Of a stretch of 24,690 bases of DNA, positions 7,452 through 24,690 are shown in pieces (within the stretch, counting starts at the first letter, position 1; the number at the start of each line of letters is the position of its first letter). The position numbers and the translations under genes were made by a program. Source of the stretch: a virus; IMG/VR virus record IMGVR_UViG_3300021956_000076, positions 1 to 24,690 of that record. The stretch is one strand, 5' to 3'. The notes beneath the pieces were generated by a model that had not been told where the DNA came from, searched no databases, and worked only from the letters and a program-made list of their open reading frames with translations.

Positions 7452-7645
7452 ACTTTGAAACCCTACTTCTGAATCGTCTCAAGGCTGCTCAGCAAGAAGT
7501 GGCTCTTGAAGCCTTGAGACGACCACAGACACGAGACGCATTCGAGTACGGGTGTCGCGTGGGCATCATAGAAGGCTATGAGGCCGCAATAAATGTACTC
7601 TTAAACCTGATCAACGAGGAAAAGTATGGAGATAAAGACCTCTGA
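7448..7645 (+). CDS. Small conserved phage protein of unknown function (65 aa)
   Basis: A 65-residue protein starting at the ATG of an ATGA overlap (7448-7451) with the preceding gene; it overlaps the GroES-like gene by 20 bases. The sequence is amphipathic and probably all-helical, with an N-terminal NFETLLLNRLKAAQ, a central ALRRPQTRDAFEYGCRVGII and a C-terminal helix ending in Glu/Lys. Small proteins of this pattern (a helix, an LRRP-like turn, then YG..xGI) are common beside portal genes in uncultured aquatic phages, from memory. No function can be assigned; it may be a minor head component or head-assembly factor. Confidence 0.65.
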   Translation: MNFETLLLNRLKAAQQEVALEALRRPQTRDAFEYGCRVGIIEGYEAAINVLLNLINEEKYGDKDL

Positions 7646-8039
7646 GAACGCATTGGCGGAAGCTTTTCCAGCAGTAGATGCTGGCATCCGGCCTTTCGGT
7701 AGCCGCGTTCTGGTCCAGATTCGGACACCCCGTAAAATATCCAAGGGCGGCATCATAATTGACCTTGGTACGCAAGAAACTGAAAAGTGGAACACTCAGG
7801 TCGCCAAGGTGATCTCTGTTGGTCCGCTGGCATTCAAGAACCGGACAACTATGGAGCCGTGGCCGGAAGGCGCTTGGTGCAAGCCCGGTGATTTCGTTCG
7901 TGTCGCCAAATATGGCGGCGACCGTTGGGAAATCGCGTATGGCGACATTGGCGAGAAAGCCATGTTCGTGATCTTCAATGATCTGGACATCATTGGCGAC
8001 GTAACCGGCGATCCTCTTGCTGTGAAAGCATTCATCTGA
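7626..8039 (+). CDS. GroES-like co-chaperonin (Cpn10 family)
   Basis: A 137-residue protein with a GAGG ribosome site just before ATG 7626, inside the end of the preceding gene. After an N-terminal extension of about 20 residues it shows the Cpn10 pattern: RPFGSRVLVQ at the first strand, KISKGGIII in the place of the mobile loop that contacts GroEL, VAKVISVGP, then GDFVRVAKYGG and a closing FNDLDIIG. Cpn10 proteins cap the GroEL cage; phage versions (T4 gp31 is the precedent) help fold the major capsid protein. No GroEL is in the window, so the host chaperonin is the likely partner. Its place between portal and scaffold in the head operon fits that role. The extended N-terminus and C-terminal tail make it longer than the usual ~95 residues. 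Confidence 0.85.
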   Translation: MEIKTSENALAEAFPAVDAGIRPFGSRVLVQIRTPRKISKGGIIIDLGTQETEKWNTQVAKVISVGPLAFKNRTTMEPWPEGAWCKPGDFVRVAKYGGDRWEIAYGDIGEKAMFVIFNDLDIIGDVTGDPLAVKAFI

Positions 8040-14733: not shown

Positions 14734-16777
<2,044 letters not shown>

Positions 16778-20707: not shown

Positions 20708-21787
20708 ATGAAAATAGCCGTTTACGCAATCAGCAAAAATGAATCTAAGCTTGTGGAGCGTTTTTGCACTTCTGCAAAAGACGCAGATATTATCCTTATC
20801 GCAGACACCGGGAGCGATGATGATACCGCAGAAGTGGCACGGGGATGTGGCGCGGTTGTTCACCATATTAGCGTTGTCCCTTGGCGTTTTGATACTGCTC
20901 GCAACGCTGCTCTTTCCCTTGTTCCTAGCAATGTGGATGTCTGCATCAGCCTAGACATAGACGAGATTCTTCAGCCGGGATGGCGCAATGAAATTGAGCG
21001 TCTTTGGGTTGACGGAGCCACTCGTCTTGATTTTCTGTTCGACTGCGGGAACGGCATCGTGTTCAGACCACGGCGCATTCACGCTCGGCATGGTTATCGG
21101 TGGCAATACCCTTGCCATGAGCTTTTGGTTCCAGACAACAGATACCCGGAAAAGCCCGTTAGCACGGACATGGTGCTGATACGCCACGACCAAGATCCAA
21201 CCAAGCCTCGCGGACAGTATCTCGACATGCTTGAGCAGGCGGCCAAGGAAGATCCAAGCTGCCCTCGCAGCGCGTTCTACTACGCCCGCGAGCTAAGCTA
21301 CCGCCAACGGTGGGCAGACTGCATATTAGCCTTTCAGCGGTACTTGCATATTCCTGCTGACCTGTGGTGGCACGAAAAAGCGTTCGCCTATCGTGTCATG
21401 GGCAATGCCCACAGCAAGCTTGGCAATCCATATGACGCCGAAAGAAATTTTCATCTGGCGGCTGCTGAAGCCCCCGGCACCCGTGAGCCTTGGTGCAATC
21501 TAGCCATGCTTATGTACACTCAGAACCGATGGGAAGAGTGTTTCGCCTACTCCATGCGGGCGCTGCGGATCACAGAGCCGGATCATGTCCATACGTCAGA
21601 CCCCAACGTGTGGGGTGCGTGGCCTCACGACTTAGCCAGTCTGGCTGCTTGGCACCTCAAACTGCCTGAAATTTGCATCGAACAAGCTCGATTGGCGGTA
21701 GAAAAAGACCCCAATGACGAACGCCTGAAGAAAAATTTGGACTTCGTGACAACCGATCCTGAATCGGTTAAACTTGCCGCAGAATAG
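20708..21787 (+). CDS. Family 2-like glycosyltransferase with C-terminal TPR-like repeats
   Basis: A 359-residue protein; ATG 20708 follows GAGGG and precedes the first conserved strand, so in-frame starts further upstream within the adhesin gene are rejected. The GT-A fold is clear: KIAVYAISKNES at the N-terminus, the nucleotide-sugar motif DTGSDDDT (residues 33-40), WRFDTARNAAL (59-69), and the metal-binding SLDIDE with D83-x-D85-E86. After about residue 185 come helical pairs of TPR type (RSAFYYARELSYRQRWADC, KAFAYRVMGNAHSKLGN, CNLAMLMYTQNRWEEC). It starts 7 bases after the adhesin stop. It may glycosylate fibres of this phage or host surface sugars; the substrate cannot be read from sequence. 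Confidence 0.85.
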   Translation: MKIAVYAISKNESKLVERFCTSAKDADIILIADTGSDDDTAEVARGCGAVVHHISVVPWRFDTARNAALSLVPSNVDVCISLDIDEILQPGWRNEIERLWVDGATRLDFLFDCGNGIVFRPRRIHARHGYRWQYPCHELLVPDNRYPEKPVSTDMVLIRHDQDPTKPRGQYLDMLEQAAKEDPSCPRSAFYYARELSYRQRWADCILAFQRYLHIPADLWWHEKAFAYRVMGNAHSKLGNPYDAERNFHLAAAEAPGTREPWCNLAMLMYTQNRWEECFAYSMRALRITEPDHVHTSDPNVWGAWPHDLASLAAWHLKLPEICIEQARLAVEKDPNDERLKKNLDFVTTDPESVKLAAE

Positions 21788-21796
21788 GGGTTTAGG

Positions 21797-22141
21797 ATGA
21801 TCGAAGAGCTTATCGTCAGGATGTTCAAGGCCCGGAACCAAGCCCATATGCGGCATTGGAGTACGGATTCCTATTCTGAGCACAAGGCTCTTGGACATTA
21901 CTATGATGGCGTCATCGACAAGCTAGACGAGATTGTCGAGGCATATCAGGGCGGCTTTGGCAAGGTAGAGAACTTGCCAGACAGCATTGATGACGCTAAA
22001 AAACTGGTTCAGGAAGAAATGCTTTGGCTGACGAAAAATCGCGAAGAGATCGCCAAAAATATCCCGGCGCTCGAAAATCTGCTTGATGATCTCGCTGGCC
22101 TTCACATGAAGACGCTCTATAAGCTTGAAAATCTGAGGTAG
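21797..22141 (+). CDS. Small Dps/ferritin-like phage protein (DUF5856-like)
   Basis: A 114-residue, all-helical protein. The N-terminal half reads [17 protein letters not shown] (residues 16-32), then [18 protein letters not shown] (35-52), which strongly resembles the first two helices of Dps-type ferritins. By my hand alignment with E. coli Dps from memory, H20, H29, D44 and E48 fall on the ferroxidase ligands H51, H63, D78 and E82, but the D67 position is G33. The second half ([19 protein letters not shown], then a last helix) could complete a short four-helix bundle; Dps is longer, at about 165 residues. I recall a viral family DUF5856 of this type. The gene lies between the glycosyltransferase and a fibre gene. 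Iron binding is untested. Confidence 0.65.
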
Positions 22142-22145
22142 CACG

Positions 22146-24335
22146 ATGGCCGCGACAGGTTACACCCCGATCCAGCTTTATCGCTCAGCAACTGCGAGCG
22201 CGGCTCCTTTAGGGGTAAATCTTGCCAATGGCGAATTGGCTATCAATTACAACACCGCAGATATGGCTCTTTACGCCAAAAATTCTGCCGGAACTGTAAA
22301 GCTTTTGATGAACAATCCTGCTGGGCTGAAATACCCAACAGCGGACGGCACGGCAAATCAGGTAATTAAAACTGACGGTGCGGGAAACCTGTCCTTTGGC
22401 GCAATATCCGGGGTTGTCACAACATTCAGTGCGGGCACGACCGGTCTTACACCAAGCACCGCAACTTCTGGCGCTGTGACGCTTGCCGGAACGCTAGCTG
22501 TCGCCAACGGTGGAACTGGCGGAACAACTGCTGCCACGGCTCGTTCGGGAATTGGCGCTGCCGCATCCGGCGCTAATAGTGACATCACCAGCATCACTGG
22601 CCTTACAACCGCGCTTACAGCGGCTCAGGGCGGAACCGGCAACGCCTCATATACGATTGGCGATCTTCTTTATGCCAGCACTACAACAGCGCTTTCCAAA
22701 CTTGCTGACGTTGCCACTGGCAATTCGCTGATTTCTGGTGGTGTAGGAACAGCCCCTTCTTGGGGCAAGATTGGATTAACCACGCATATATCCGGAACGC
22801 TTGCTGTGGCAAACGGCGGCACTGGAGTAACATCATCTACAGGTTCCGGGAATGTTGTTCTCAGCACAAGCCCTACGCTTGTAACTCCAGTTCTTGGAAC
22901 CCCAACTTCAGTCACGCTTACAAATGCCACTGGTCTACCGCTTTCCACAGGCGTTACCGGGAATCTTCCTGTCTCTAATCTTGGATCTGGCACAGGTGCC
23001 TCATCCACAACATTTTGGCGCGGTGATGGAACATGGGCGACACCCGGTGGCAGCGGTTCTGGTACTGTCAATTCTGGTACAAGTGGTCAGCTTTCTTATT
23101 ACGCATCGACAGGAACGGCTGTTTCTGGCCTCACCACAGGTACTGGCGTCACGACAGCTTTGGGCGTCAACACCGGCTCTGCTGGGGCCTTTGTCGTCAA
23201 TGGTGGCGCTCTTGGAACGCCTTCAAGCGGCACCTTAACTAATGCCACGGGATTACCCCTTTCCACTGGCGTAACGGGAAATCTTGCCGTAACAAATCTT
23301 GGATCTGGAACGGGCGCATCATCATCGACTTTTTGGCGTGGCGATGGAACGTGGGCAACACCGGCTGGTGGTGGTGCGTCAAATTATACGATTAGTAACA
23401 AAACAGCCGCATATACGGTTGTTTCCGGTGATCTTGGCGCAATTATCAACTGCACTAGCGGTACATTTACGGTTTCGTTGACCGCTGCCGCAAGCCTTGG
23501 GTCTGGATTTAACTGCACAATTTGGAATACTGGCACTGGAACTATCACGATTGATCCGTCTGGATCTGAAACAATAGATGGGACAACCACCCGTATCCTG
23601 AGAACATTTGAGGGCTGTGAAATTATCTGCAACGGTACAAATTGGAATACCGGTGCAAAAAAGACAATGTTGCAATATGCAGAAAAAAATTTGTCTGGCG
23701 ACCAATTGCCATCAGCAAGTTCTGCGTCTTCATCTGTGGCTATAGGTAGAGCAGCAACCGCCAGTGCTGTTACTTCTCTATCTATCGGTGCAAACTCTAC
23801 TGCTTCTGGGTCGTATTCAACAGCGATTGGATATTACTCAAATTCAAGCGGCAACAATTCTATGTCGTTTAATGCGTTTGGATATGCAAGAGAAATAAAC
23901 AAATATGGTTTTGGTTCTGGAGCTACTTTTGGAGGATCACAATTTGGCATACTTCCGTTGTGTGTTATTACCACAACATCAACGCCAACATTGTTGACTT
24001 CTGATCTTGGTTCTGCCGGATCGTTAAATCAATTAATAATCCAAGACAATTCCGCTTACACATTTAGTATTCTTGTATCAGCAAGAGAAAAAGCATCTAT
24101 TGGGACAAATGCTGCTGCATGGAAAATTGAGGGTTTAATTCGCAGAGAAGGAAATGCCTCTACTACAACAATTGTTGGAACTCCAACAACTACGGTAATA
24201 AGCAACGTGCCGGGGTGGGCTGTGGCTGTATCTGCTGACACTTCTAATGGGTGTCTTGCAATTACAGTTACTGGTTCTGCAACCTCAATCTATTGGCAAG
24301 CTTTGGCGACAACCGTCGAAGTCACTTACGCATAG
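22146..24335 (+). CDS. Tail fibre protein with YadA-like distal repeats
   Basis: A 729-residue protein starting 4 bases after the previous stop. Residues 1-40 ([19 protein letters not shown], then [20 protein letters not shown]) are the phage-fibre attachment domain common in aquatic phages. The middle has fibre repeats such as [14 protein letters not shown] and a 53-residue unit present twice (about residues 250-302 and 356-408) with [11 protein letters not shown]. Residues about 520-590 contain [22 protein letters not shown] and [13 protein letters not shown], typical of the left-handed parallel beta-roll in YadA-like head domains. The C-terminal ~140 residues are a separate domain, probably the receptor-binding tip. 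DNA from about 23690 on is more AT-rich. It probably acts as a trimer. Confidence 0.8.
22893..23050 (+). repeat. Direct repeat, copy 1, in the tail fibre gene
   Basis: Codes for LGTP(T/S)S..., [15 protein letters not shown] and [11 protein letters not shown]. The matching copy lies exactly 318 bases (106 residues) downstream, with many synonymous differences. Confidence 0.85.
23211..23368 (+). repeat. Direct repeat, copy 2, in the tail fibre gene
   Basis: Second copy of the unit at 22893-23050, in the same frame and without net length change. Such units are widespread in phage fibres and can be gained or lost by recombination. Confidence 0.85.
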
Positions 24336-24343
24336 GGTGCAAC

Positions 24344-24643
24344 ATGGCAATACAGCTTGACCTTCTTCAATCTCAATATGGCGTGTCGTTTTCTGGCGCG
24401 TATTTCCGTATTGTAAATGTCAACATTCTTCGCACAGCAAATATGGACTTTCGTTTTAGGGTCATAATTGATCTTGCGGCCTATGCGACTAATCCGCAAA
24501 ACGAATCTCTTCGTGAAGTTGATATAAGGCGTTATAATTGTTTTATTAGCGAAATAGAAGTTCAGTCCGGTGACACGTTCTTGGCGCGTTGTTATCAATG
24601 GGTCATGGCGCAGCCTGACATGGTTGGAGCGGTGGCAGTGTGA
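24344..24643 (+). CDS. Conserved phage tail-region protein of unknown function (99 aa)
   Basis: A 99-residue protein. ATG 24344 follows AGGGTGC and precedes the conserved MAIQLDLLQSQYGVSFSGAYF; in-frame upstream starts lie inside the fibre gene. Later blocks are FRFRVIIDLAAYA, REVDIRRYNCFI and GDTFLARCYQWVMAQPDM. I recall this pattern from many small proteins encoded after fibre genes in uncultured aquatic phages, where its role is unknown. It looks like a compact alpha/beta fold without membrane segments. Its stop overlaps the next start (TGATG). Confidence 0.72.
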   Translation: MAIQLDLLQSQYGVSFSGAYFRIVNVNILRTANMDFRFRVIIDLAAYATNPQNESLREVDIRRYNCFISEIEVQSGDTFLARCYQWVMAQPDMVGAVAV

Positions 24644-24690
24644 TGGACCAGTCAACTCTCAATATGATCTTTGGCGGCATCCTTGCGGTG
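24643..24690 (+). CDS. Start of a probable small membrane (holin-like) protein, cut by window end
   Basis: The ATG at 24643 overlaps the preceding stop in TGATG, with GGAG about 15 bases upstream. Only 16 residues are in the window (MDQSTLNMIFGGILAV). They run into a hydrophobic segment and resemble short one-helix phage proteins found at the end of tail clusters, some of which are called holin-like. The rest of the gene is needed to judge this. Confidence 0.5.
   Translation, partial: MDQSTLNMIFGGILAV

Follow-up and report, generated by a model that had tools for sequence, protein, structure and literature searches.

A phage protein family that includes T4 rI.-1 is homologous to Dps mini-ferritins and retains four invariant ferroxidase-type ligands

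Analysis of a 24,690-base virus contig (the window, by which the whole stretch of DNA analysed is meant) revealed a small protein of the DUF5856 family, which also contains T4 rI.-1 and is homologous to the Dps mini-ferritins. This homology is well supported by profile comparison, by cross-matches between PHROGs and by the structural model of a jumbo-phage member (L288), and four of the five Dps ferroxidase ligands are invariant in the family. It is somewhat more likely than not that the protein is a phage-specific miniature Dps, which would bind metal, be carried in or with the virion and limit damage to phage DNA by iron and peroxide; the homology, the Dps fold of a member and the ligands form the basis of this reading, from which its remaining parts are extrapolated.

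The window carries terminase, portal, GroES-like, capsid and fibre-type genes. The gene under study and its two neighbours are arranged as follows:

20708..21787, plus strand: glycosyltransferase with TPR repeats, upstream neighbour (PHROG 13126, E 1.6e-91)
21797..22141, plus strand: mini-Dps-like protein of 114 aa (DUF5856 / PHROG 858 / T4 rI.-1 family)
22146..24335, plus strand: tail-fibre-like protein, downstream neighbour (PHROG 11393, E 7.7e-08)

The ORF starts with ATG and lies in a tight operon, being separated by 9 nt from the stop codon of the glycosyltransferase gene and by 4 nt from the ATG of the fibre gene. Strong purifying selection acts on it, with dN/dS values of 0.008 and 0.068 against its two nearest relatives (L001 and L002, respectively). 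Given these low values, the matches to PF19174 and PHROG 858 and the invariance of the ligands, the ORF is not a chance occurrence but a genuine gene. Elsewhere in the window, a structural-operon protein bearing a long collagen-like G-P-T-G repeat domain is encoded at 15029-16777, and a phage GroES-like co-chaperonin (Cpn10, PF00166, E 1.8e-7) at 7626-8039, with the portal gene on one side and capsid genes on the other. At 24640-24690 the start of an ORF (MDQSTLNMIFGGILAV...), within which the contig stops, resembles by eye the beginning of a holin.

The window protein matched PF19174 (DUF5856) over the entire profile (positions 1-94 of 94) with an E-value of 1.4e-17 and 64.9 bits, compared with a cut-off of 34.6, and PHROG 858 with an E-value of 1.3e-19. 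T4 rI.-1, alias MobD.6, matches PF19174 at 5e-33, and DUF5856, PHROG 858 and the rI.-1 family are one and the same. Using the window protein as tblastn query, relatives were detected in 1059 of 50,697 phage records; 1403 phage records were obtained by tblastn with T4 rI.-1 and 1410 with the member of phage KpS110 as query. From 294 sources 190 distinct family sequences were collected, the longest of which has 196 aa, and identity to the window protein falls as low as 26%. The set of 188 sequences used below comprises T4 rI.-1 and 187 sequences of at least 105 aa from the loci, three shorter ones being excluded. Family members are named 'starvation-inducible transcriptional regulator' or 'MobD.6' in databases. 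The member of phage SE_PL is annotated as 'ferritin like protein' and that of phage PP35 as 'putative starvation-induced DNA protecting protein'; thus, a Dps-like nature had already been guessed by annotators. DUF5856 was not named in the literature covered by a full-text library search. A cellular origin as a host gene was considered and set aside. Among 398 genomes of one phylum PF19174 was found in two, one of which was the search centre and had been picked because it carries the gene. On genome contigs 53 stretches fitted a pattern and three of them, all in metagenome-assembled genomes, encode a relative. In Bacillus subtilis, which served as a control, the DUF5856 profile gave a match below the cut-off to what is probably a Dps. 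In a T4-like phage (L280:5998-6382) the family gene is split by a frameshift across two overlapping frames. PADLOC returned no match for the window protein or T4 rI.-1, and a profile-based assignment to defence or counter-defence was rejected on these grounds.

The positions of the Dps ferroxidase ligands in the window protein were compared with E. coli Dps and with the family:

21845..21847, plus strand: His17, nearly invariant (187/188); some Dps share a His there (HxxHW)
21854..21856, plus strand: His20, position of E. coli Dps His51, invariant (188/188)
21881..21883, plus strand: His29, position of Dps His63, invariant (188/188)
21893..21895, plus strand: Gly33, position of Dps Asp67, acidic in only 8/188, including T4 rI.-1 (Asp)
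21926..21928, plus strand: Asp44, position of Dps Asp78, invariant (188/188)
21938..21940, plus strand: Glu48, position of Dps Glu82, invariant (188/188)

His20, His29, Asp44 and Glu48, Trp21 and a glycine at the D67 position had been noted beforehand from the window protein alone, and all were confirmed. The His/Asp/Glu set proved to be kept in relatives as well. Part of the sequence set was fetched with patterns containing ligand residues; conservation is complete in every retrieval group, and all four ligands are present in 13 of 13 pattern-free members from phage records. The fifth Dps ligand is absent in 180 of the 188 sequences. Its position, which is the fourth residue past His29, is occupied by Gly in 136, Arg in 22, Asn in 21 and Gln in one, while the eight acidic carriers include T4 rI.-1 and Miller-type phages. 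T4 rI.-1 thus possesses all five ferroxidase ligands (H51, H63, D67, D78 and E82 in Dps numbering), whereas the window protein has four of them. In 167 members the two histidine ligands stand 9 residues apart; the distance is 12 in 14 members and 13 in seven, so that most members differ from E. coli Dps, where it is 12. The HW pair, which had been regarded as kept, did not turn out to be a family feature, since His20 is followed by Trp in 116, Leu in 64 and Phe in eight of the 188 sequences; the family also retains His17. Tyr36 (Tyr in 187/188), Gly52, Tyr108 and Lys109 are nearly invariant too, and none of them corresponds to a Dps ferroxidase ligand.

The relation to Dps is visible only through profile-profile comparison and bridging members. 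A phmmer search of PDB sequences with the window protein gave nothing convincing (best E 0.025, not a Dps), and PF00210 (ferritin) was not among the eight Pfam families listed for it up to an E-value of 10. When the family profile was used against PDB sequences, the top five matches were Dps-family proteins with E-values of 0.0055-0.023. Alignment by hhalign of the family with a set of 29 Dps proteins, made up of the E. coli protein and 28 relatives, resulted in a probability of 87 and a score of 39.3, spanning helices A and B, compared with 16.1 for the reversed family and 20.0 for the best of 59 column permutations. Against 21 bacterioferritins the family scored 15.4 with a probability of 0.7, whereas Dps against bacterioferritin, included as positive control, scored 58.3. 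The link is therefore to Dps, and a bacterioferritin origin was rejected. In addition, E. coli Dps matches both PHROG 3636 (3.5e-27) and PHROG 858 (0.0087), and PHROG 3636 is matched by 10 of 54 family members (best 8.3e-11).

The structure of the window protein was predicted using an alignment of 54 members (pLDDT 95.1, pTM 0.76). The model contains helices at residues 2-22, 26-54, 67-80, 82-86 and 90-112; helix A begins directly, with no N-terminal extension ahead of it. Residues 1-63, which form the A-B hairpin, superposed on Dps in VIA-align at about 2.2 Å, and only those residues did so. Foldseek returned no match at E ≤0.001 for this model; CopM and Dps chains were listed, with a whole-chain rmsd to Dps of about 17-19 Å. 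Best whole-chain fit in VIA-align was sulerythrin (Z 8.1, rmsd 5.4 over 111 residues), which is described as a domain-swapped four-helix dimer (PMC12833474). No sequence relation to sulerythrin is seen (11% identity). We read the model as a pair of hairpins that have swung away from each other, as they do in domain-swapped subunits, an opened form deduced from alignments of a single-chain prediction. In a viral model library one close family model showed the same arrangement (rmsd 1.9), and most of the next entries differed in their overall arrangement (about 17-19 Å). Foldseek also matched the window model weakly to a protein of Pithovirus LCPAC404 (E 1.6e-2), which possibly represents the same fold in a giant virus.

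A different picture was obtained for L288, the jumbo-phage member, which has a longer linker between helices B and C. Its model is a closed bundle (pLDDT 95.5, pTM 0.88) for which MsDps2 was the top VIA match (Z 13.5, rmsd 2.5 over 123 residues) and the first 27 of 50 matches were Dps proteins; as a Z of about 13 may reflect a common arrangement among helical bundles, the weight lies on sequence and ligands together. For E. coli Dps the values were Z 12.2 and rmsd 2.5 over 121 residues. Dps has a short helix in the B-C connection. The linkers of both models (residues 55-66 in the window protein and 64-82 in L288) are free of helix. Comparison of these two members suggests that the fold is opened by the shortness of the linker in the window branch. 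Glu48 and Asp97 are 46-50 residues apart in 93 of the 188 sequences and 51-56 in the other 95. Taken together, the designation of the protein as Dps/ferritin-like is supported by the hhalign result and by the closed Dps-type bundle of L288; the expected four-helix bundle is thus predicted for a family member, while the model of the window protein itself consists of two opened hairpins.

The window protein therefore resembles mini-ferritins such as E. coli Dps, HP-NAP and MsDps2 in the H...H...D...E pattern of helices A and B with four of the five ligands, but with 114 aa it is shorter than E. coli Dps (167 aa) and lacks the basic tail (a feature that not every Dps has), the B-C linker helix and an equivalent of D67. 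Its net charge is -6 and a positive net charge occurs in only four of the 188 family sequences, so that judged from sequence no Dps-like basic DNA-binding surface is evident. Relative to T4 rI.-1, with which it shares the four ligands, it is devoid of the fifth acidic ligand and of a short N-terminal leader. True Dps genes are also borne by phages, namely of Lactobacillus, gut Gratiaviridae and Streptomyces, and those of Lactobacillus phages and Gratiaviridae are described as oxidative-stress genes (PMC8008677, PMC6669764). According to a 2021 survey, Dps-like enzymes had earlier been seen only in seven Lactobacillus phages, to which the survey adds Gratiaviridae and 36 other genomes (PMC8008677). 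These genes were found by ordinary Dps similarity; the family studied here is not named in the accessible portions of these sources.

A direct pointer to the site of action of the family comes from one distant relative. ORF78 of Dickeya phage LIMEstone1 was identified by mass spectrometry of phage particles as a protein of 13.15 kDa with 28.21% coverage and three unique peptides (PMC3296691). This protein is a DUF5856 member (E 8.8e-29) of 117 aa; its mass was computed as 13.15 kDa, and a coverage of 28.21% equals 33 of its 117 residues. The sequence record labels it 'ORF078; confirmed structural protein' and places a putative late promoter immediately before it. ORF80, two genes upstream, is likewise a confirmed structural protein. 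ORF78 to ORF85 were described as containing a cluster of structural proteins for which no prediction was available, and phage ViI was stated to have structural counterparts of all 12 unknown structural proteins of LIMEstone1 (PMC3296691). The region from ORF78 to ORF85 (L394:2083-6354) encodes five confirmed structural proteins of unknown function, one of which (ORF80) gave a weak TOBE-like match, and is perhaps an internal-protein cassette. For T4, a literature search combining rI.-1 and virion mass spectrometry yielded no report of the rI.-1 protein in virions in the accessible parts of the sources, and neither 'rI.-1' nor 'MobD' is present in the main text of PMC5694885.

Internal proteins of T4 reach the head via an N-terminal leader of ten residues, of which 4 and 7 are important for targeting and 8 and 10 for processing (PMC9026906). 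Within T4, ipI, ipII, ipIII and 61.1 are the only sites of the pattern MKx[FY]x[DE]F. Jumbo-phage family members begin with M[KR]KF[ST]xF, with F at positions 4 and 7 (one group begins with MKKFSQI), which resembles the leaders MKT[YF][QK]EF of IPI, IPII and IPIII, although the mature domain differs. T4 rI.-1 and the L279 member start with MKFSDF, and the leader of rI.-1 is one residue shorter than those of the internal proteins. With a looser pattern, which was chosen after leaders had been seen and was counted over nested ATG starts, so that the numbers are descriptive, 13 of 2070 ATG starts matched in large-phage loci compared with 2 of 25,941 in small-phage loci. Six of these 13 are family members, and in KpS110 both genes directly upstream of the family gene bear such leaders. 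Near the jumbo-phage mini-Dps gene, a 504-aa gene (L161:405-1916 and L281:3477-4988, both minus strand) begins with MKNF[KN]DFMNEE, which likewise resembles a T4-internal-protein leader; it has no PHROG match, and its Pfam matches were below the cut-off and confined to L161. The prohead protease PF03420 was above the cut-off in three of 14 records (T4, the L279 record and KpS110), below it in three more and not found in eight, namely four small phages and four large records that are possibly fragments. A leader as family-wide rule was rejected, as it is missing in the window branch, the small-phage branches and the LIMEstone1 and KpS110 members. Since the window protein and LIMEstone1 ORF78 lack it, the leader is neither general nor required for presence in the virion.

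The surroundings of the gene bear on two other readings. Across 189 distinct loci, the gene directly upstream belongs to a fibre-type cluster in 76 and to a portal cluster (representative PHROG 156) in 50; the fibre-type cluster (cluster 0) was built by single linkage from repetitive proteins and is broad, so that its counts are approximate. Endolysin, lysozyme, terminase/portal and peptidase genes and rI were found adjacent or near as well, and neighbours on the same strand lie within -20 to 60 nt in 162 of 174 cases upstream and 138 of 162 downstream. The mini-Dps gene thus has no constant partner, yet keeps company with virion and lysis genes in the same orientation. Loading of tail fibres with iron for passage via siderophore receptors, the first option considered in the preliminary description, fits the position in the window between the glycosyltransferase and the fibre gene. 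A fibre-specific role is nevertheless unlikely because the neighbour differs between phages, an HxH motif was not found in the two large fibre-like proteins of the window, and none of the 190 distinct sequences showed a fibre fusion; fibre loading was therefore dropped as the main reading and appears very improbable. An accessory function in lysis timing, in which the protein would modulate holin/antiholin-controlled lysis like T4 rI.-1, is suggested by the location of rI.-1 directly beside rI and by the slight delay in the collapse of lysis inhibition upon its over-expression (PMC6832632). Moreover, the family gene is next to or one gene away from an endolysin or lysozyme gene in L155 and L156 and adjoins a lysis-inhibition gene in L158. 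The same review calls the role of rI.-1 undefined, however, and phage RaK2 is described as having a homologue, although neither a T holin nor an RI could be recognised in it (PMC3622015). As virion genes neighbour most of the 189 loci and the LIMEstone1 member sits in the virion, we regard a primary function in lysis timing as unlikely.

More weight has to be given to reuse of the fold, according to which a Dps-derived helical hairpin has a structural or chaperone-like role within the particle and the His/Asp/Glu set holds a structural metal (e.g. zinc) or stabilises a dimer without ferroxidase chemistry. The missing fifth ligand of most members, the acidic character of the protein, the opened, domain-swap-like model of the window branch, the virion location of the LIMEstone1 member and the near invariance of the four residues that are not Dps ligands (Tyr36, Gly52, Tyr108 and Lys109) are all in line with this. 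On the other hand, precisely the four Dps ligands stay invariant even in members that share as little as 26% identity with the window protein, and T4 rI.-1 and its relatives possess the fifth as well; mere reuse of the fold, which had been raised at the outset, is therefore less likely, though it keeps an appreciable minority share of the probability. That the protein is a transcriptional regulator, as implied by the PHROG and RefSeq names, is hardly credible for an acidic protein with an all-helical Dps-type fold and Dps homology, and the label most likely derives from Dps naming.

We lean towards the miniature Dps, which has to be weighed against the loss of the fifth ligand in 180 of 188 members, the missing PF00210 match, the unclosed window model, the net charge of -6 and the finding that rI.-1 is frameshifted in laboratory stocks of T4 (PMC8573959) and is therefore dispensable there. 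In this mechanism, two copies would pair such that His20, His29, Asp44 and Glu48, with His17 nearby, form an inter-subunit metal site of the Dps type, in most members without the fifth ligand; in the short-linker branch including the window protein, pairing may take the form of a domain-swapped dimer, as the model suggests. The protein would be made late, from the structural operon, and be carried in or with the virion, which presumably also applies to the phage of the window. There it would bind iron or a similar metal and remove Fe2+ and peroxide near packaged or entering DNA. Protection of phage DNA, one of the roles considered initially, is thus plausible and is strengthened by the distant member confirmed by mass spectrometry as virion protein, while the activity itself is putative. 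A more far-reaching version, which we offer tentatively and consider possible at best, is that the whole rI.-1/DUF5856 family represents a virion-internal, co-ejected mini-Dps, which would reach the head via the leader in T4-like and jumbo phages and act as a portal- or fibre-side domain-swapped metal-binding dimer in smaller phages, entering with the DNA and, within the first minutes, disarming iron, peroxide or metal-dependent attack. If this were true, the effect on T4 lysis inhibition would be a side effect.

With these results a family of unknown function that is present in more than 1000 sequenced phages, including T4, gains a testable chemistry, the binding of metal by an invariant site of the Dps type, as well as a location, the virion, as demonstrated for one member. 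They also connect rI.-1, a T4 gene that has been hard to explain, with the biology of iron and peroxide and suggest that some phages may carry a mini-ferritin in their particle.
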